Positions 17,651 through 25,777 of a stretch of DNA of 58,829 nucleotides are shown piece by piece. Position numbers and translations under genes: made by a program. Numbering within the stretch: position 1 is the stretch's first letter; each line of letters starts with the position of its first letter. The notes under the pieces were generated by a model that was not told the DNA's origin, did no database searches, and saw only the letters and a program-made list of their open reading frames with translations. The stretch is taken from NCBI GenBank assembly GCA_947624875.1, contig CANQMA010000007.1:1-58829 (forward strand), given 5' to 3'. The DNA comes from an uncultured Lachnospiraceae bacterium. Lineage in GTDB: Bacteria > Bacillota > Clostridia > Lachnospirales > Lachnospiraceae.

Positions 17651-18241
17651 ATGCTGAATTATATATGGACAGGAATGATTGTGGTGGCAGTCATTTATGG
17701 AGTACTTACAGGAAATATCGGGGAGGTCGGCAATGGCGCCGTAGAGTCGGCAAAAGAGGCGGTCGAGCTTTGTATTACCATGCTTGGAGTCATGAGTTTA
17801 TGGATGGGGCTGATGGAGGTGGCAAAAACAGCAGGAGTCATTCGAAAACTGGAACATTGGATGAAACCATTGATTCGATGGCTGTTTCCAAATCTTCCGG
17901 AGGAACACAGCGCCAGAGCGCACATCGCAACGAATATTGTGGCAAATTTATTGGGATTGGGCTGGGCGGCAACTCCGGCAGGCTTGAGAGCAATGGAAGA
18001 ATTGGCAAAACATCCGACAAACGGAAAGAGGCCATCTCATGTGGCAACAGACGAGATGTGCACTTTTTTGGTATTAAACATTTCCTCCCTGCAATTGATT
18101 CCGGTAACCATCATTGCATTTCGAAATCAGTTTGGCGCGCAGAATCCGTCAGCAGTCGTGCTCCCGGCAATTATTGCAACATCCGTGAGTACCGGAGTGG
18201 GGATTTTGTATTGTAAACTCAAATCAAAGCGAAAGTATTGA
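17651..18241 (+). CDS. spmA: Spore maturation protein A
   Basis: SpmA is a nucleoside-transporter-fold (Gate domain) membrane protein that works with SpmB in spore core dehydration and heat resistance. The 196 residues form about five hydrophobic segments. AKEAVELCITMLGVMSLWMG and NIVANLLGLGWAATPAGLRA are characteristic, with TDEMCTFLVLNISSLQLIP later. The ATG has only a weak upstream purine run. In most Firmicutes spmB follows directly. Here the downstream partner is 7 kb away at 25262, beyond the cobalamin cluster. Confidence 0.93.
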   Translation: MLNYIWTGMIVVAVIYGVLTGNIGEVGNGAVESAKEAVELCITMLGVMSLWMGLMEVAKTAGVIRKLEHWMKPLIRWLFPNLPEEHSARAHIATNIVANLLGLGWAATPAGLRAMEELAKHPTNGKRPSHVATDEMCTFLVLNISSLQLIPVTIIAFRNQFGAQNPSAVVLPAIIATSVSTGVGILYCKLKSKRKY

Positions 18242-18290
18242 CGATTACTGCCAAATCAAGTAGTATAAAATTGTCTATTTGATAAGAAAA

Positions 18291-18465
18291 GTTGTGGTCT
18301 GGGGCGTGAGCCGCCAGTTTAAGGGAAGTCCGGTGAGAATCCGGCACAGTCTTTCTCTACTGTATGAGGGACGAACAAAGCATGATGCCACGGGAGACAT
18401 GGTTACAAAACCAGCCTGGAAGGCGCTTTTAGTAGGAGGAACTTAAGTCAGGATATGTCAACACA
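18291..18465 (+). promoter_or_regulatory. Cobalamin riboswitch
   Basis: The conserved elements appear in order: AAGGGAAGTCCGGTGAGAAT with TCCGGCACAG (the GGGAA...GGTG-AA-TCC core, about 18320-18350), CTACTGTA, then GATGCCACGGGAGACATGG, CAGCCTGGAAGGCG, and the 3' signature AAGTCAGGATATG (18445-18457). GTTG at the 5' end can pair with CAAC at the 3' end as P1. Adenosylcobalamin-type corrinoids normally turn the downstream genes off through this element. It controls the gene run from 18621 to 25198. Confidence 0.95.
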
Positions 18466-18506
18466 GCTTTACCGGAATTCGTAAGCAAGACGAAGAGGAA
18501 ATAAAA

Positions 18507-18527
18507 GGCGCCTGCGGCGTCTGTTTT
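18507..18527 (+). terminator. Possible expression-platform terminator of the riboswitch
   Basis: GGCGCC pairs with GGCGTC (one G-U) around TGC, followed by TGTTTT. It lies 40 bases after the riboswitch core and about 95 bases before the first gene, where a transcription-off hairpin would be expected. The T run is short, so antitermination is plausible but not certain. Confidence 0.5.
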
Positions 18528-18620
18528 GACGTGTCAATATCGCGAAACAATCAAAGTCTTGCAGAAATGCAGGGCTTTTTCCTTTTTCTGGAGAATCAAA
18601 GGACAGAAAGGAGATTTACG

Positions 18621-20159
18621 ATGAACAGAGTAACAAAATTTTTTGTGTCAGTGGTATTGACCGTGGCACTGATCGGAACTGCCTTTGTAGGAGATTTTGC
18701 AAAGGCTGAGGGAGCGCAGGAGACGGTAACGGCTGTCTTTACAGCAGAAAAGTTTGTAATCGGCCAGGGATTTCTGGTCGAGCCAAAACAGGTTACCCTG
18801 CAGCAGGGTTCTTCGATTGCGGACCTGTTTAAGAAGGTAATGGATGAGGAAGGATATTCCTACACGGCCAGTGAGGGCGGCGGATTTTACCTTGAAGGAA
18901 TCAATGATGCTGACAATGGGGCGGCAACAATCCCTGAAAGTATTACAGGACTGGCAGGGTATCTGGAAGACTGGGAACCAAACGAGGATGCCAATTTGGA
19001 AGAAGGAGATTATACAATGTTTTCCGGTTGGATGTTTTCCCAAAATGGAGAGACATTGGATGATTTGTGCAGTACAGTGACCGTGCAGGATGGAGATGTC
19101 ATCCGTCTTCAATTTACGCTGATTTGGGGCTCCGACATCGGTTTGGGAGACGAGACGTGGACGGGAATTCCAAATGCAGAGTTGGCTGATAAAGAAGAAT
19201 TGATACGAACTGCCGCCAATATTAACAGTCTGGAAAATGCTGATGAAGAAATCAAAACTGTTTACGAAAAGGCAATTCAGGCTCTGGAAAATTATGACGC
19301 CACGCAGCAGGAAATTGATGAGATTTATGCGAAATTAAAAGAATTGGAAAGCAATCCGGCAGAACCAAGCACGAAAGAACCGGAAAGCATACCAGCAGAA
19401 AGCGGCACGAAGGAACCGGAAAGCGCACCGGCAGAAACAAGCACGAAAGAACCGGAAAGCGCACCGGCAGAAACAAGCACGAAGGAACCGGAAAGCACAC
19501 CGGCGGAAAGCAGCACAAAGGAACCGGAAAGCGCACCGGCAGAAACAAGCACGAAAGAACCGGAAAGCGCACCGGCAGAAACAAGCACGAAGGAACCGGA
19601 AAGCACACCGGCGGAAAGCAGCACAAAGGAACCGGAAAGCACACCGGCAGAAACAAGCACGAAAGAACCGGAAAGCACTCCGGCGGAAGTAAGCACGACG
19701 ACACGGGAAGGTAATGAACAGACCCAAGGTGCGATTCAGACTGGCGCGCAAAATCAGAATGTCGCCGCAACGACTACGGCAAATATTGCGCAGAAGACCA
19801 CAGCAACAGATGTAACGAACAGCAGATTGAGCGTATTCAAAAAGAGTGGAAAGCCGAAAATCAAGAAGATAACCAAAAAGAAATCTGCAAAAAAAGCAAT
19901 GATTATTCTCAAAGAGAAAATCAATGGAGCAGACGGTTATCAGGTGCGGTTCTACAAAACGCGGAAAGCCGCAAAGAAGAACAAAAAAGCAGTTGCAAAG
20001 ATTTTTTATAAGAAAAATAAAAAGAAGTTTACGGTAAGCAGTACAAAAATCAAAAACAGGAAAAAACTGTTTGTCAGAACGCGCGCATATTGTGTGAACC
20101 ATGGAAAGAAACAATATGGGAAATGGTCAGATAGTTATACGGTACAGGTTGTAAAGTAA
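18621..20159 (+). CDS. DUF4430 (transcobalamin-like) secreted protein with repeat linker and wall-binding-like C-terminus
   Basis: The 512-residue protein starts with a signal peptide (MNRVTKFFVSVVLTVALIG, cut near AKAEG). Next is a DUF4430 domain, about residues 45-180, the fold of the C-terminal beta domain of animal intrinsic factor and transcobalamin; GSSIADLFKKVMDEEGY, SGWMFSQNGE and VQDGDVIRLQF are typical. A short helical segment leads to nine 12-residue repeats of the PAETSTKEPESA type. The C-terminal domain of about 110 residues is very basic and looks fibronectin-III-like (NGADGYQVRFYKTRKAAKK, then VRTRAY and YGKWSDSYTV), as in many Lachnospiraceae wall proteins. AAAGGAGA supports ATG 18621. 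The riboswitch suggests corrinoid binding at the cell surface. Confidence 0.82.
   Translation: MNRVTKFFVSVVLTVALIGTAFVGDFAKAEGAQETVTAVFTAEKFVIGQGFLVEPKQVTLQQGSSIADLFKKVMDEEGYSYTASEGGGFYLEGINDADNGAATIPESITGLAGYLEDWEPNEDANLEEGDYTMFSGWMFSQNGETLDDLCSTVTVQDGDVIRLQFTLIWGSDIGLGDETWTGIPNAELADKEELIRTAANINSLENADEEIKTVYEKAIQALENYDATQQEIDEIYAKLKELESNPAEPSTKEPESIPAESGTKEPESAPAETSTKEPESAPAETSTKEPESTPAESSTKEPESAPAETSTKEPESAPAETSTKEPESTPAESSTKEPESTPAETSTKEPESTPAEVSTTTREGNEQTQGAIQTGAQNQNVAATTTANIAQKTTATDVTNSRLSVFKKSGKPKIKKITKKKSAKKAMIILKEKINGADGYQVRFYKTRKAAKKNKKAVAKIFYKKNKKKFTVSSTKIKNRKKLFVRTRAYCVNHGKKQYGKWSDSYTVQVVK
19356..19697 (+). repeat. 36-bp tandem repeats encoding a Pro/Thr/Ser/Glu linker
   Basis: Nine complete units and a partial one encode P-A-E-x-S-T-K-E-P-E-S-x. 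The sequence suggests a higher-order 108-bp (three-unit) duplication. The repeat probably forms an extended stalk that carries the DUF4430 domain away from the wall. It also opens long artificial reading frames on the opposite strand. Confidence 0.92.
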
Positions 20160-20244
20160 CAAAAATTACAGTCAGATATTTTGGGATTTTTTGTTTTCAT
20201 CATCTGATTTCAGAATATCGACATTGTAAATGGAGGAAAACAGA

Positions 20245-21645
20245 ATGAAATTTTCGAAACAAAAAGCAGCAGGACTTATTTTTGTATTTTGTTTTCTTTT
20301 TCTATTGACATTTACTGTTCCAACAAGCGCAAAGACTGTTCTGGGAAAAAAAGAGACAGAAGCCTACCTGAAAAAAACGGCAGATTTCCTGATTCAAAAT
20401 AATCCCGACCCCGGTTATGGGAGTACCGGAGGAGAATGGGCAATGATTGGTCTGGCAAGGTCCGGATATCTGCCGGATGAATATAAGGAAAAATATCTGC
20501 AAAATCTGGATGAAAAACTAAATGAATGTGATGGCGTGTTGCATCAGAAAAAATATACAGAGTATTCCAGAGTGGTCATTGCCTTGACTGCACTTGGACT
20601 GGATGCTGCGGATTATCACGGTTATCAACTGGTCCGGCCATTGTCCGAGATGGATACGGTAAAGCGGCAGGGAGTGAATGGCACAGCATATGCGCTCATT
20701 GCCTTAGATTGTGGAAACTATACCATACCGGAAGCCAAAAGTGATTATAAAGGCATTTTGACGACACGGGAAGGGCTCATTGCATCAATGCTTGAAAGTC
20801 AGACAGAGGAAGGTGGATGGAATTATGCCGGATCAAAAGCAAATGCAAGTGCTGATGTGACCGCTATGGTGATTCAGGCGTTGGCGCCATATTATCAATC
20901 AAAAGACAACGTCAGAGAGGCGGTAGACAGAGGACTGCTTTGTTTGTCAAAACTGCAATGTTCCGATGGGAGCTTTTCCGATGGAAAGACAGAGAATTGC
21001 GAGAGCACGGCGCAGGTACTGACCGCAATGGCTGCGATCCATTTGGATATAGAAGACGAGAGGTTTGTGAAATCCGATCATACAGTATTGGACGGGCTTC
21101 TCTTATACAATAAAGACGGAGGTTTTTGCCACCTGCAGACGGGAAATGTCAATGTGATGGCAACAGAGCAGGCATTGTATGCCCTGACTGCATACAGCCT
21201 GAATCTGTCTGGCGAAGAGGAACTTTATGAGATTGTTAAAGAGAACAGACAAAAAACAACTCAAATACAAAAAGAAACAACCAAAAAGGCTAAGAAACAA
21301 AAAAATCTGAAAAAGAATCGGAGCAAAGCGAAATCTAAAAATCAAAAATCACACAAAGCGGCAAGTCAATTGCAGACCGGGCAGACCGCTGTTTTGAGGG
21401 AGCCGGCACAGACGCAGAAGACGTCTGAAAAAGGAACTCCGGCAGCGGGTCAAACAGTAGAAAGAGCAGAGAGCAGCAGTGCAATGATTACAGATGAAAT
21501 TCAGGAAAAGACAGAAAATGCGACGAATGAAATTACGAAAAAGGAAGATCAAACGCCGGATAATACGAATATCTTTGCCGGACTTATTTTTGTGGGAGCT
21601 GTTTTAGCAATTGGATTTGTGATTTATAAAAAAGGACGGAGATAA
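20245..21645 (+). CDS. Membrane-anchored alpha/alpha-barrel protein (intrinsic factor / prenyltransferase-like fold)
   Basis: The 466-residue protein has a signal peptide (GLIFVFCFLFLLTFTVPTSA). About 300 residues follow with helical repeats carrying glycine-aromatic turns (YGSTGGEWAMIGLARSGY, EEGGWNYAG, DGSFSDGK, KDGGFCHLQTG). That pattern belongs to the alpha6/alpha6 barrel shared by prenyltransferases, terpene cyclases and the cobalamin-binding N-terminal domain of intrinsic factor. A Lys-rich linker (about 345-380) precedes one C-terminal membrane helix (IFAGLIFVGAVLAIGFVIY) with a basic end. GGAGG ends 8 bases before ATG 20245. Downstream of a B12 riboswitch and beside two DUF4430 proteins, it probably binds corrinoids; the ligand is inferred. 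Confidence 0.8.
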   Translation: MKFSKQKAAGLIFVFCFLFLLTFTVPTSAKTVLGKKETEAYLKKTADFLIQNNPDPGYGSTGGEWAMIGLARSGYLPDEYKEKYLQNLDEKLNECDGVLHQKKYTEYSRVVIALTALGLDAADYHGYQLVRPLSEMDTVKRQGVNGTAYALIALDCGNYTIPEAKSDYKGILTTREGLIASMLESQTEEGGWNYAGSKANASADVTAMVIQALAPYYQSKDNVREAVDRGLLCLSKLQCSDGSFSDGKTENCESTAQVLTAMAAIHLDIEDERFVKSDHTVLDGLLLYNKDGGFCHLQTGNVNVMATEQALYALTAYSLNLSGEEELYEIVKENRQKTTQIQKETTKKAKKQKNLKKNRSKAKSKNQKSHKAASQLQTGQTAVLREPAQTQKTSEKGTPAAGQTVERAESSSAMITDEIQEKTENATNEITKKEDQTPDNTNIFAGLIFVGAVLAIGFVIYKKGRR

Positions 21646-21646
21646 A

Positions 21647-22153
21647 ATGAAGCAAACCATCAGAATATTGACAACAATTTTTTTGATATGCGGGTGTATC
21701 TTATTTTTCGGATGCAGCAATCAACATGCTTCTTCGGAAAACGGAAATCAATACTGCACGCTCAGCGTGGACTGTTCTGAAGCGATAAAACATTCAGAGC
21801 AGTTAAGTGCGGGATTGTCAGAGTATCTGCCAGAAGATGGAAAGATTTTTCAGAAGACCAATATTAAAGTCGAAGATGGAGACAGCGTATATGATATTTT
21901 AGAACGGTCGCTGCGAGAAGAAGGGATTTTAATGGAAGCGTCCTTTACAGGAGACAGCGCCTATGTGGAGGGAATTGATAATCTATATGAGTTTGATTGC
22001 GGGGAGGTATCCGGCTGGACGTACTATGTGAACGGGGAAAGCCCGCAGGTGGGCTGCAGTAGTTATAAGGTTCACGACGGAGACCGTATCGAATGGAACT
22101 ATTCCTGCAATTTTTGGAGTGATTTAGAGGAAAACACGGAAGGAGTATCATAG
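21647..22153 (+). CDS. DUF4430 lipoprotein (transcobalamin C-terminal-like)
   Basis: The 168-residue protein has a lipoprotein signal (MKQTIRILTTIFLICGCILF, lipobox FFGC). One DUF4430 domain follows: VEDGDSVYDILERSLREEGI, VSGWTYYVNGESPQVG and VHDGDRIEWNYSC. It is likely tethered to the outer face of the membrane near the transporter. It starts one base after the alpha/alpha-barrel gene ends, with GGAG upstream, and its stop overlaps the ecfT start codon. It may act as the final corrinoid hand-off protein. Confidence 0.85.
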   Translation: MKQTIRILTTIFLICGCILFFGCSNQHASSENGNQYCTLSVDCSEAIKHSEQLSAGLSEYLPEDGKIFQKTNIKVEDGDSVYDILERSLREEGILMEASFTGDSAYVEGIDNLYEFDCGEVSGWTYYVNGESPQVGCSSYKVHDGDRIEWNYSCNFWSDLEENTEGVS

Positions 22154-23022
22154 TGGCGGACGAATTTTCAAGATTTCATCCAATCGTAAATATCTTATTT
22201 TTTTTCAGCGTTCCGGTACTCGCAATGCTTCGGATGCAGGCGGGGCTGACGGTTATTTCTCTTGGCAGCGCAGCAATTTATTATTTCTATTTAAAGGGGA
22301 CTTCCGGCCTGAAATATTTTGGAGTTATTCTGGTCATGTTTTTACTGACGGTGATGATTAATCCGTTATTTTCCCACAAAGGAGCAGATCTGCTGTTTTA
22401 TCTGCCAACCGGGAATCCGGTCACAAAAGAATCGGTGCTCTATGGCATTTTTATGGGCATTATGCTTTGCGGAACATTATTGTGGATTTCCTGCATGAAC
22501 CTTGTTGTGACACAAGACCAATGGATTGAATTTGCCGGAAGATGGATTCCGCATTTTGCACTTCTGCTTTCTATGATTTTTTCATTTATTCCGAAGTATA
22601 CCCGGCAGATTCAAAAGATTCATCTTGCCGGAAAAGCAGTGAACGGAGAGCCGCTGGGAAAGAAAGCAAAATTAAAGAATGCGTTTTTGACCTTTTCCAT
22701 TGCGACAACATGGGCGTTGGAAAATTCTGTGGATACGGTTAATTCCATGAGGGCGCGGGGATATGGATCAGGAAAAAGAACGACATTTCACCGATATCGG
22801 ATAACCGTCAGGGATGGCATCACAATAGCATGGATTTTGTGCTGCGGCATTCTTGTTGTCACAGGACTGGTTGGTGGACGGACAGGAACCCTGTATTACC
22901 CTTATTATGTAGTATGGGGAGATGCGGTTACTTATTCGGCATATTTTCTGCTCTGCATGACTCCGCTGGGCATTAATGGAAGGGAGGCGCTTCGATGGCG
23001 CAGATTGAAATTCAAAATTTAA
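22153..23022 (+). CDS. ECF transporter T component (EcfT/CbiQ family)
   Basis: This is the transmembrane coupling protein of an energy-coupling-factor vitamin importer, 289 residues. N-terminal hydrophobic helices are followed by SMIFSFIPKYTRQIQKIHLA and SMRARGYGSGKRT. The A-R-G motif of the coupling helices that dock on the ATPases is intact. It starts with GTG; AGGAG ends 7 bases before it, and its first base is shared with the previous stop. It overlaps the ATPase gene by 28 bases. Confidence 0.9.
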   Translation: MADEFSRFHPIVNILFFFSVPVLAMLRMQAGLTVISLGSAAIYYFYLKGTSGLKYFGVILVMFLLTVMINPLFSHKGADLLFYLPTGNPVTKESVLYGIFMGIMLCGTLLWISCMNLVVTQDQWIEFAGRWIPHFALLLSMIFSFIPKYTRQIQKIHLAGKAVNGEPLGKKAKLKNAFLTFSIATTWALENSVDTVNSMRARGYGSGKRTTFHRYRITVRDGITIAWILCCGILVVTGLVGGRTGTLYYPYYVVWGDAVTYSAYFLLCMTPLGINGREALRWRRLKFKI

Positions 23023-24596
23023 GTTTCTTTTATCCAAACGAAATCAGTCCCGCAGTCGAAAATGTTTCTTTGAAGATTCATCAGGGAGAATATGTCGTTT
23101 TGTGCGGCAGGTCGGGAAGCGGGAAAAGCACACTGCTCCGGAGCCTGAAACCTGTGTTGCGCCCTTACGGGAAAGTGGAAGGAAGTGTTTTTTTTGAAAA
23201 CTGTGATTTGGAGCAGGTCAGTGAAGCCGTTCAGGCAAAAAAAATCGGATTTGTCATGCAGTCTGTGGAACACCAGCTGGTAACGGATAAAGTATGGCAT
23301 GAATTGTCTTTTGGATTGGAAAATCTGGGCTGCCGGCAGCAGGTGATCCAGGCGCGGGTGGCGGAAATTGCAGAATATTTTGGCATTACAGACTGGCTGA
23401 ACAATTGTGTGAGCCGGTTATCCGGAGGGCAGAAACAACTGTTAAATCTTGCGTCAGTGATGGTTTTCAATCCGGATATTTTAATCATGGACGAGCCGAC
23501 GGCACAGCTGGATCCGATTGCTGCCGAGCGCTTTTTGGAGATGGTTCAAAAAATCAATCAGGATTTCGGCATTACAGTGCTGTTGTCAGAACACAGACTT
23601 GGAGACGTGCTGCAGGCAGCAGACCGGCTGGGGATTATGGAGCACGGGAAACTGATAGATTTTGGAGCAGTAACAGAGGTGCTTCAAAAGAATAGAAATC
23701 GGGAACTCATAAAACTGATGCCGGATTGCGCGCAGATTTTTTATCAGGTGGAACACGATTTGAATCAGGAAGTACCAATCTCTGTAAAACAGGGGAGAAA
23801 CTGGCTGAAACAAAAAGCGCCGGACTTAAGAACCGAAAGTCCGGTTTCCTTTGGCGCACCAAAGCAAAGAACGAATCAAAAATCCGAACAGGCAGTCCGC
23901 TGTTCCCATATATGGTTTCGGTATGAACGGACCGGACGGGATATTATCGAAGATCTCAGCTTTCAGGTAAATCGGGGAGAAATCTATGCAGTTTTAGGTG
24001 GAAACGGAACCGGGAAAACGACGGCGATGTCAGTCCTGGCAGGAGTGTATAAGGCATACCGGGGCAGAATGAAAATCAATGGAAAAACATCGCTGCTTCC
24101 ACAGGACGTACAGACTCTTTTTTGCAAAGATACTGTCGGGGAAGAATTAGAGGAGGTCCCTCAAAATATTCAGGATTTCGTACAGCTTCAGGAACTGCTG
24201 CAGAGACATCCCTATGATTTGAGCGGAGGGCAGCAGCAAAAACTCGGACTGGCAAAAGTGCTTGCATCCGGCGCGGACATATTACTGTTAGATGAACCGA
24301 CAAAAGGGCTTGACGGTTTTTCTAAGGAGCAGATGGGAAAAATGTTAAAGGAATTAAAAAACAGAGATAAAACAATTATTCTGGTGAGCCATGACATTGA
24401 TTTCTGTGGAGCGTATGCAGACCGCTGCGGGCTGTTTGCAATGGGAAGAATGGTGTCGGAAGGAACCGTGCAGGAGTTTTTCTGCGAAAACCGGTTTTAC
24501 ATAACAACCATCAGAAAAATGACAGAAGGAATTGTACAGGGAATGGTCAATAAGGAGGAATTACGATGTTTTTTGGCGGGGGAAACAGCTATCTGA
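22995..24596 (+). CDS. ECF transporter ATPase, two ABC domains fused
   Basis: The 533-residue protein has two complete ABC ATPase domains. Domain 1 (about 1-230) has Walker A GRSGSGKST, signature SRLSGGQKQ and Walker B ILIMDEPTAQLD. Domain 2 (about 300-520) has GGNGTGKTT, DLSGGQQQK and ILLLDEPTKGLD. Both look able to hydrolyse ATP. A linker of about 65 residues joins them. It replaces the separate EcfA1/EcfA2 pair of other ECF systems. It overlaps ecfT by 28 bases and the S component by 31 bases, so the three are translated together. Confidence 0.93.
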   Translation: MAQIEIQNLSFFYPNEISPAVENVSLKIHQGEYVVLCGRSGSGKSTLLRSLKPVLRPYGKVEGSVFFENCDLEQVSEAVQAKKIGFVMQSVEHQLVTDKVWHELSFGLENLGCRQQVIQARVAEIAEYFGITDWLNNCVSRLSGGQKQLLNLASVMVFNPDILIMDEPTAQLDPIAAERFLEMVQKINQDFGITVLLSEHRLGDVLQAADRLGIMEHGKLIDFGAVTEVLQKNRNRELIKLMPDCAQIFYQVEHDLNQEVPISVKQGRNWLKQKAPDLRTESPVSFGAPKQRTNQKSEQAVRCSHIWFRYERTGRDIIEDLSFQVNRGEIYAVLGGNGTGKTTAMSVLAGVYKAYRGRMKINGKTSLLPQDVQTLFCKDTVGEELEEVPQNIQDFVQLQELLQRHPYDLSGGQQQKLGLAKVLASGADILLLDEPTKGLDGFSKEQMGKMLKELKNRDKTIILVSHDIDFCGAYADRCGLFAMGRMVSEGTVQEFFCENRFYITTIRKMTEGIVQGMVNKEELRCFLAGETAI

Positions 24597-25198
24597 TTTC
24601 GCTGGGAATCATTCTTGCAGCCATCCTGTGGTTTATGGTCTCTTTTGAGCGGAAAAAGCCGAGGGAGCGGGAGGTTGTCCTTCTGGCGGCGATGACAGCG
24701 ATTGCAATTGCCGGCAGAGTGGCCTTTTTTATGGTTCCGCAGGTAAAACCGAGCACTGCGATCATTATCATTACCGGCATTATGCTTGGAAAACAGGCAG
24801 GTTTTTTATGCGGGGCGCTCACAGCCTTTATTTCAGACTTTGCATTCGGACAGGGGCCGTGGACTCCATGGCAGATGGCAGCATTTGGACTAGTGGGATT
24901 TACGGCGGCATTGATATTCCAACATCGGGAATCTCTATATCATCATAAAAGCCTCTTATGTGTGTATGGTTTTTTGGGAACGGTATTGATTTACGGTCTT
25001 ATCATGGATACCGGAACAGCGCTTACGCTTACAGGAGAACTGAGCGGACAGCGGTTGACTGCCACGTATCTGGCAGGGATTCCCTTTAATGTGATTCATG
25101 GGGTATCTACGGCCGTGACCTTATGGATTTTTGCTGTTCCGATGTTTCATAAACTGGATCGAATTAAAATGAAATATGGAATGTATTATCAGCGCTAA
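24566..25198 (+). CDS. ECF transporter S component, probable corrinoid specificity
   Basis: The 210-residue integral membrane protein is the substrate-binding subunit. VVLLAAMTAIAIAGRVAFFM (about 38-57) is the standard S-component first-helix region with the small-residue face that binds the T protein. MLGKQAGFLCGALTAFISDF and FGQGPWTPWQMAAFG follow, similar to CbrT-like and related S components. AAGGAGG lies about 8 bases before ATG 24566. Corrinoid specificity is inferred from the riboswitch and DUF4430 neighbours; queuosine or another vitamin precursor cannot be excluded from sequence alone. Confidence 0.85.
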   Translation: MFFGGGNSYLISLGIILAAILWFMVSFERKKPREREVVLLAAMTAIAIAGRVAFFMVPQVKPSTAIIIITGIMLGKQAGFLCGALTAFISDFAFGQGPWTPWQMAAFGLVGFTAALIFQHRESLYHHKSLLCVYGFLGTVLIYGLIMDTGTALTLTGELSGQRLTATYLAGIPFNVIHGVSTAVTLWIFAVPMFHKLDRIKMKYGMYYQR

Positions 25199-25210
25199 GA
25201 CAGATATAAA

Positions 25211-25262
25211 CGCCTTGATTTTGTCATATATTTTTTTAAGGACAAAATTGAGGTGTTTTTTT
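25211..25262 (+). terminator. Terminator of the cobalamin operon overlapping the spmB ribosome site
   Basis: CGCCTTGATTTTGTC (25211-25225) pairs with GACAAAATTGAGGTG (25241-25255) over 15 bp, with wobble-type mismatches, followed by seven T. The 3' arm contains GAGG, the probable ribosome site of spmB, so the hairpin would both end the upstream transcript and hide the spmB start in read-through RNA. Confidence 0.8.
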
Positions 25263-25777
25263 TGAGCAGACTATCGGATTATATTATCCCCGGACTGATT
25301 GTCGTGGTCGTTCTGTGCGGCATGATGCAGAAAAAGGACGTTTATGAGGATTTTATCAGAGGAGCAAAGGAAGGACTTCCCACGGTATTAAAGGTGATGC
25401 CGACATTGATTGGACTGATGATTGCCGTCGGAATGCTTCGCGCCTCCGGATTTATGGAGGCGGCAGGAACTTTTCTGGGGCAGTGGACAGAAAAAATCGG
25501 ATTTCCCGGAGCGTTGGTTCCGCTTACTTTTGTAAAAATATTCTCCTCTTCCGCAGCGACAGGAATGTTAGTCGATGTGTATAAAAATTATGGGGCAGAC
25601 TCTTACATTTCGAATATTGCTTCCATTATGATGAGCAGTACAGAAACCGTGTTTTATACAATGTCTGTCTATTTCATGGTGGCGAAAGTAACAAAAACCC
25701 GCTGGACACTTATGGGAGCAATGCTTGCAACACTGGGCGGGACGGTGGCAAGTGTTTATCTGGCGGGAATGATGTAA
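25262..25777 (+). CDS. spmB: Spore maturation protein B
   Basis: SpmB is the partner of SpmA in spore dehydration. The 171-residue membrane protein reads SRLSDYIIPGLIVVVVLCG, then VYEDFIRGAKEGLPTVLKVMP, TLIGLMIAVGMLRASG, and FVKIFSSSAATGMLVDVYKN, all hallmark SpmB motifs. TTG 25262 was chosen because GAGG ends 8 bases before it and the resulting start matches the family; GTG at 25253 is the longer alternative. It lies 63 bases after the cobalamin S component instead of next to spmA. Confidence 0.92.
   Translation: MSRLSDYIIPGLIVVVVLCGMMQKKDVYEDFIRGAKEGLPTVLKVMPTLIGLMIAVGMLRASGFMEAAGTFLGQWTEKIGFPGALVPLTFVKIFSSSAATGMLVDVYKNYGADSYISNIASIMMSSTETVFYTMSVYFMVAKVTKTRWTLMGAMLATLGGTVASVYLAGMM

Follow-up and report, generated by a model that had tools for sequence, protein, structure and literature searches.

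Results

In a 58,829-nucleotide stretch of contig CANQMA010000007.1 from an uncultured Lachnospiraceae bacterium (assembly GCA_947624875.1; the whole stretch is hereafter the window), we examined an operon in which a cobalamin riboswitch is followed by genes for three predicted surface proteins, termed D1, BAR and D2, and for an energy-coupling factor (ECF) transporter. The operon probably serves the capture and import of corrinoids (the B12 family), with a clamp at the cell surface that would hand its ligand over to the transporter. D1 and D2 carry DUF4430 domains and BAR is a predicted alpha/alpha barrel, and this pair of folds is that of the animal B12 carriers, i.e., intrinsic factor, transcobalamin and haptocorrin.

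A corrinoid-type control region and transporter

The riboswitch aptamer lies at 18278-18479 on the forward strand, where a covariance model match to RF00174 covers model positions 1-189 at 55.8 bits (gathering score, 31.5; E 3.4e-11). No other RF00174 match was found in the assembly (1.79 Mb, 84% complete). Position 18291, at which a preliminary description of this DNA had begun the system, falls within the aptamer. Between the aptamer and the D1 gene, a terminator-like hairpin on the same strand (18553-18578; 11 pairs and a T-rich tail after them), identified by consensus match alone, is a candidate expression platform. Terminator-like consensus sites numbered 16 in the region, compared with 6.8 +/- 3.0 in shuffled sequences; promoter-like sites were no more frequent there than expected by chance (12 vs 10.5 +/- 2.8 in shuffles), and the folding of a second hairpin region, at 18470-18545, was unremarkable (z -0.38).

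At the other end of the operon, three forward-strand genes encode the transporter. The transmembrane component EcfT (22153-23022) was assigned via its orthologues: the protein itself had no family match in the family library scans, while PF02361 (CbiQ) matches four of the six tested orthologues, in three cases above the cut-off of 25, with 36.4 bits for the nearest relative. It is followed by a fused double ATPase, EcfA-EcfA' (22995-24596), which contains ABC_tran in two stretches and scores 313.0 bits against TIGR04520 (cut-off 315), and by the substrate-binding component EcfS (24566-25198), which exceeds the cut-offs of both PF07155 (47.9 bits) and PF12822 (33.8 bits). When a profile built from seven S components (A3) was compared with the Protein Data Bank (PDB), the best match was 6fnp_A (E 8.9e-21), followed at a distance by the riboflavin uptake protein 3p5n (6.9e-5); in the Pfam scan of the operon proteins, CbiM stayed under its cut-off (20.8 bits vs 23.1). 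6FNP is ECF-CbrT of Lactobacillus delbrueckii, for which excerpts of the publication report the import of cobalamin and cobinamide (PMC5997447). Since the S-component profile matches ECF-CbrT far ahead of the riboflavin uptake protein, the transporter appears to be of the B12 kind.

The assembly also encodes a possible consumer of corrinoid, an 823-residue MetH-like protein (L132:94-2565) with 498.7 bits to TIGR02082, under the equivalog cut-off of 1010.85. The match spans model positions 3-860 of 1182, so that the C-terminal part is missing. This protein holds the only B12-binding-domain match in the 84%-complete assembly; CbiC was not found there, an absence that is weak evidence given the incompleteness.

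Three predicted surface proteins between riboswitch and transporter

D1 (18621-20159, forward strand) is a predicted secreted DUF4430 protein with a stalk of KEPES(A/T)PAE-type repeats and a basic C-terminal part. Its match to PF14478 (28.9 bits, cut-off 23.8) covers profile positions 39-71 of 72 and is followed by the repeats. D2 (21647-22153, forward strand), whose gene adjoins that of EcfT, is a DUF4430 lipoprotein of predicted beta-domain fold that matches PF14478 with 71.2 bits and carries a lipobox-like FFGC. When the whole assembly was searched for DUF4430, both matches, D1 and D2, lay within this operon. From the end of BAR onward, neighbouring genes overlap or almost touch.

BAR itself (20245-21645, forward strand) was recognized as a secreted alpha/alpha-barrel protein from its AlphaFold2 model and structural matches. 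It consists of a barrel at about residues 45-330, a lysine-rich linker and a hydrophobic C-terminal anchor segment ending in KKGRR. All of its Pfam matches were sub-threshold (SQHop_cyclase_C, 24.0 vs 26.1; Prenyltrans, 20.4 vs 26.5), PF01122, the eukaryotic cobalamin-binding family, gave no match in the Pfam scan at E 0.1, and a single-sequence search of the PDB returned nothing relevant. Residues W65, R109, L151, D204, T206, M208 and Q309 are invariant in all 63 aligned barrels, as is the SGW of DUF4430 in all 41 aligned sequences.

Thus the gene run that the preliminary description had outlined, namely a cobalamin riboswitch heading a DUF4430 stalk protein, a barrel protein with a C-terminal anchor, a DUF4430 lipoprotein and a full ECF transporter, is borne out by the RF00174 and PF14478 matches, the predicted folds, the EcfT orthologues, the double ATPase and the CbrT-like S component.

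A weak match (28.2 bits against a cut-off of 300) also links BAR (20245-21642) to NF053823, the SCO2321 membrane-protein family. SCO gene names are those of Streptomyces, and the match hints at an actinobacterial cousin of BAR.

Together, the two predicted folds rank animal B12 carriers first

We compared two ligand-free models with known structures: one of a natural relative whose single chain contains both barrel and DUF4430, arranged in the animal order (predicted local distance difference test score 91), and one of an artificial chain joining the window's own BAR barrel and D2. For the natural fusion, every one of the first 15 PDB matches in Foldseek was a chain of intrinsic factor, transcobalamin or haptocorrin, with E values from 1.3e-12 to 1.3e-10 (the match after them, 2.2e-5). 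The BAR-D2 chain gave the same picture with lower significance, animal B12 carriers again taking ranks 1-15 (E 2.1e-8 to 3.5e-6; next 7.1e-5), and its D2 part matched 5no0, the beta domain of transcobalamin in isolation (E 3.1e-4; template modelling (TM) score 0.71 by target; root-mean-square deviation (rmsd) 3.2).

Other comparisons qualify this likeness. The barrel alone scores structurally highest against terpene cyclases, and when the window pair was submitted to VIA-align, the 50 listed matches were barrel-fold enzymes with no carrier among them, an absence that, according to the tool, excludes nothing. Likewise, barrel profiles A1 and A7 compared with PDB sequences returned squalene-hopene cyclase, other terpene cyclases, prenyltransferases and alpha-2-macroglobulins, and no carrier. 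Because both the best structural scores and the sequence profiles of the barrel point to terpene cyclases, the barrel on its own is not specific. The trimmed DUF4430 profile A8 matched nothing among PDB sequences up to E 10; the matches of the first DUF4430 profile, A2, were meaningless, as the profile was spoiled by low-complexity stalks. PF01122 gave weak matches (E up to 10) in four of 42 relatives, L073, L120 and L117 among them, which speak in favour of corrinoid capture; the best of them (1.5e-4, 21.3 bits) stayed under the cut-off of 25. Whole-chain TM-scores to the carriers were modest in both models, which contain no ligand and do not display the closed carrier geometry (rmsd 13-18 A for the window pair and about 8-11 A for the natural fusion; predicted TM-scores 0.61 and 0.75).

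The preliminary description had proposed that the system is built from the folds of the animal carriers, and that a predicted barrel-DUF4430 pair be compared with intrinsic factor. Run ligand-free and in one chain, this comparison upholds the pair of folds, and not the specificity of the barrel alone. Set beside the carriers (2PMV, 4ZRP, 2BB5, 4KKI), BAR provides the alpha6/alpha6 barrel as a predicted fold, albeit one common to many enzymes, and D1 and D2 (PF14478), with the D2 model, the ubiquitin-like DUF4430-type beta domain. The carriers differ in being one chain with the barrel first, whereas the window's folds reside on separate anchored proteins, none of which matches PF01122 above its cut-off.

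The gene set recurs across Clostridia and Paenibacillus

We scanned species genomes and scored the best 80 of 561 confirmed relatives (hereafter the 80 best loci) with profiles built from loci of the family, counting a DUF4430 gene as D2-type at a profile E below 1e-40. These loci come from Lachnospiraceae, other Clostridia, Paenibacillus, Terrisporobacter, Clostridium and Ruminococcus bromii, two of them (L086 and L111) from the same genome. D2-type DUF4430 was present in 75, EcfT in 70, EcfS in 65 and all three in 64, and in 69 a barrel gene lay immediately upstream of D2. Eleven of the 16 incomplete loci measure at most 10.4 kb; L079 and L128, on the other hand, have barrel and D2 with more than 8 kb beyond, yet no EcfT or EcfS match. 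For 52 of the 80 best loci, a same-strand cobalamin riboswitch was mapped no more than 600 bp upstream of a gene encoding a barrel or DUF4430 (47 at or above the gathering score), with positions for L052-L131 derived from coordinates on the assumption that riboswitch and locus share a contig; some of the riboswitches so mapped (e.g., several in L059 and L106) probably lie on other contigs. A direct rescan confirmed the riboswitch in seven of eight loci, the match in the eighth, L092, being below gathering.

Within the family, 29 of 150 genomes match BAR, the source genome included. Twenty loci were taken from these genomes; an Rfam scan of 16 found a cobalamin riboswitch in 11, and BLAST with the window proteins found D2 (E <=1e-10, in an open reading frame (ORF) without barrel) in 16 of the 20, EcfT in 16 and EcfS in 15.

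Genome-wide co-occurrence follows the same pattern. Among the 150 family genomes, 34 have the S component (E 1e-15), 29 the barrel (E 1e-3) and 28 both (Fisher 2e-23), and in the class-wide set of 243 genomes, with E 1e-20 applied to both queries, the barrel occurs in 69, the S component in 82 and both in 66, where 23 are expected (Fisher 5e-40); both tests ignore genome relatedness. Of the six family genomes with the S component only, four were inspected: the barrel of L142 is divergent and had escaped the single query, and the other three yielded no barrel. Every one of the 34 family genomes with the S component has DUF4430, which also occurs in 38 others. The related loci and the co-occurrence in both genome sets show that the gene set recurs beyond chance.

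The operon is flanked by two Gate-domain genes (17651-18241 and 25253-25777) that correspond in size to SpmA and SpmB, a pair that is usually adjacent. Matches to both also flank the operon in L052-L055; in L052 and L054 the second match, close to where the locus ends, is partial.

Fused, minimal and variant layouts

The folds had been described as split over separate proteins. This holds for the window, where they are encoded by separate genes, and not as a general rule: 44 of the 80 best loci also hold an ORF fusing barrel and DUF4430, some of them very large. Four fusions (L105, L061, L064 and L085) follow the animal order, with a linker of 9-28 residues. No D2-type DUF4430 was fused to a barrel among the 80 best loci.

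A second departure was seen in the 38 DUF4430 genomes without this S component, from which eight loci (L133-L140) were viewed. Seven consist of a small DUF4430 gene directly before a solitary S-like ORF, and five of the eight have a cobalamin riboswitch. The S-like ORFs gave weak profile matches (E 1e-5 to 7e-10), and the one tested against Pfam (L135) had no match. Judging from these sequences, a small DUF4430 protein with a solitary S-like component is a possible minimal layout without barrel.

Other variants were noted in passing. In one genome, where S component and DUF4430 are present and no barrel was matched, a riboswitch-led surface protein (L144:6084-9602, reverse strand) shows beta-propeller matches (PQQ_2, 7.3e-10), reminiscent of the Bacteroides protein BtuG. 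In L115 (1333-3586), three cobalamin riboswitches stand in a row by coordinates, two of them preceding DUF4430 genes of 138 residues and the third preceding a larger one. By crude patterns, on which we do not rely, the 75 D2-type proteins comprise nine with a lipobox-like motif, 65 with an N-terminal hydrophobic segment and one with neither, and the 82 barrel ORFs comprise 33 with an anchor like that of S-layer homology (SLH) domains, one LPxTG-like, 10 with a C-terminal hydrophobic segment and 38 others.

Discussion

Other explanations of the operon were weighed. It is conceivable, if unlikely, that only the DUF4430 proteins bind corrinoid and that the barrel merely positions them, as an adhesin or scaffold at the surface (e.g., a glycan or cell-wall binder), with no two-part clamp. 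The commonness of the barrel fold would suit such a role, as would the barrel-less loci, in which an S-like ORF mostly follows DUF4430 directly and a cobalamin riboswitch is frequent; moreover, the isolated transcobalamin beta domain binds cobalamin, according to excerpts of PMC5599065. A mere scaffold, however, accounts less readily for the barrel gene's position directly upstream of D2 in most of the best loci, for the presence of the S component in 66 of 69 barrel genomes, for the invariance of W65, R109, D204, T206 and Q309 among the aligned barrels, or for natural fusions in the animal order.

Far less probable still is that the barrel is an enzyme, i.e., an extracellular terpene cyclase, prenyltransferase or glycan-active protein that perhaps remodels the corrinoid or its surroundings. 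In favour of this, the barrel's sequence finds squalene-hopene cyclase and prenyltransferase in both Pfam and the PDB; however, the protein looks secreted and anchored, and no isoprenoid gene appears among the family matches of the operon. DXDD is the catalytic motif of class II terpene cyclases, and the D-x-D-x-T motif of the barrels lacks its last Asp in all 63 aligned sequences, that position being I, M, V, L or T, so that a complete DXDD occurs in none of them. Because the motif is missing, we rate the terpene-cyclase reading low.

Equally improbable is that the system carries a different ligand (e.g., cobalt, a precursor of the lower ligand or a product of corrinoid breakdown) and that the riboswitch does no more than report corrinoid status: cobalamin riboswitches do control cobalt transport as well, the EcfT orthologues match a family named 'cobalt transport protein', and the DUF4430-matching structure 3u7z is titled a putative metal-binding protein, but the S component is closest to CbrT (cobalamin and cobinamide) with CbiM under its cut-off, and cobalt alone would be of little use to an organism with a MetH-like protein and, in its incomplete assembly, no CbiC found.

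Returning to corrinoid capture by a clamp of barrel and DUF4430 proteins, we envisage the following sequence of events. At low corrinoid levels, expression would pass the riboswitch, as expected of its class, and the cell would display anchored BAR, membrane-bound D2 and stalked D1. A DUF4430 protein, D1 or D2, would act like the transcobalamin beta domain and take the corrinoid first; BAR would then act like the alpha domain and close over it, such that separately anchored proteins join around the ligand. From D2, encoded beside EcfT, the ligand would move on to the CbrT-like S component and be imported at the expense of ATP. In the animal carriers, excerpts of two publications report that the beta domain is the first to bind cobalamin, with the alpha domain closing afterwards (PMC11107200), and that the alpha and beta domains of transcobalamin, expressed apart, assemble once cobalamin is added (PMC5599065). 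Because of this beta-first binding and cobalamin-induced assembly, it is reasonable that two anchored proteins should form a clamp, and we regard this, by analogy, as plausible. The surface relay that the preliminary description had envisaged is accordingly backed as to riboswitch, corrinoid-type transporter and the two folds, and leans on the transcobalamin analogy as to the clamp.

Surface capture proteins beside an importer are, in themselves, an already known kind of system, and what sets this one apart is the fold pair of the animal carriers. ECF-CbrT is likewise an ECF-type importer with a related S component, and the EcfT and two ATPase domains of such an importer are encoded in the window. 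The L. delbrueckii cluster, however, is nrdJ-cbrS-cbrT-pduO according to excerpts of its publication (PMC5997447), whereas the window operon encodes the T and A subunits together with the S component, plus surface proteins. The Bacteroides lipoproteins BtuG, BtuH and BtuJ likewise capture B12 at the surface beside a transporter under riboswitch control, as described in excerpts of PMC8941943, PMC13398666 and PMC6977713; their folds differ, BtuG2 being a beta-propeller and BtuJ1 a DUF4465 beta-jelly roll, working with the outer-membrane BtuB, and BtuH too belongs to a protein family other than those of the window's surface proteins. Neither a beta-propeller nor DUF4465 was found in D1, BAR or D2 (Pfam scan, E up to 0.1). 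The solved bacterial structure that matches DUF4430, RUMGNA_00854 of Ruminococcus gnavus (3U7Z; TM-score 0.69-0.72 by target), bears no more specific title than the metal-binding one given above. In the literature searched, mostly freely accessible, seen in part and covering only the leading results on broad topics, we found no description of a bacterial DUF4430-barrel B12 system, and Gram-positive surface capture of B12-type cofactors is little described there beyond the membrane transporter.

A further-reaching possibility, which we put forward tentatively and with some doubt, is that the operon represents a Gram-positive two-part clamp on separate anchors, induced by corrinoid, and that the bacterial barrel-DUF4430 fusions in the animal order are true relatives, perhaps the source, of intrinsic factor and transcobalamin. 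If corrinoid capture by these surface proteins holds, a system found across Clostridia and Paenibacillus would employ the two folds of the human carriers, constituting a Gram-positive counterpart to the BtuG and BtuH of Bacteroides, and intrinsic factor and transcobalamin may have a bacterial root. Such a system would further point to a function for DUF4430, as well as for proteins that match only prenyltransferase or squalene-cyclase families, and would render competition for B12 between the host's carrier and bacteria testable.

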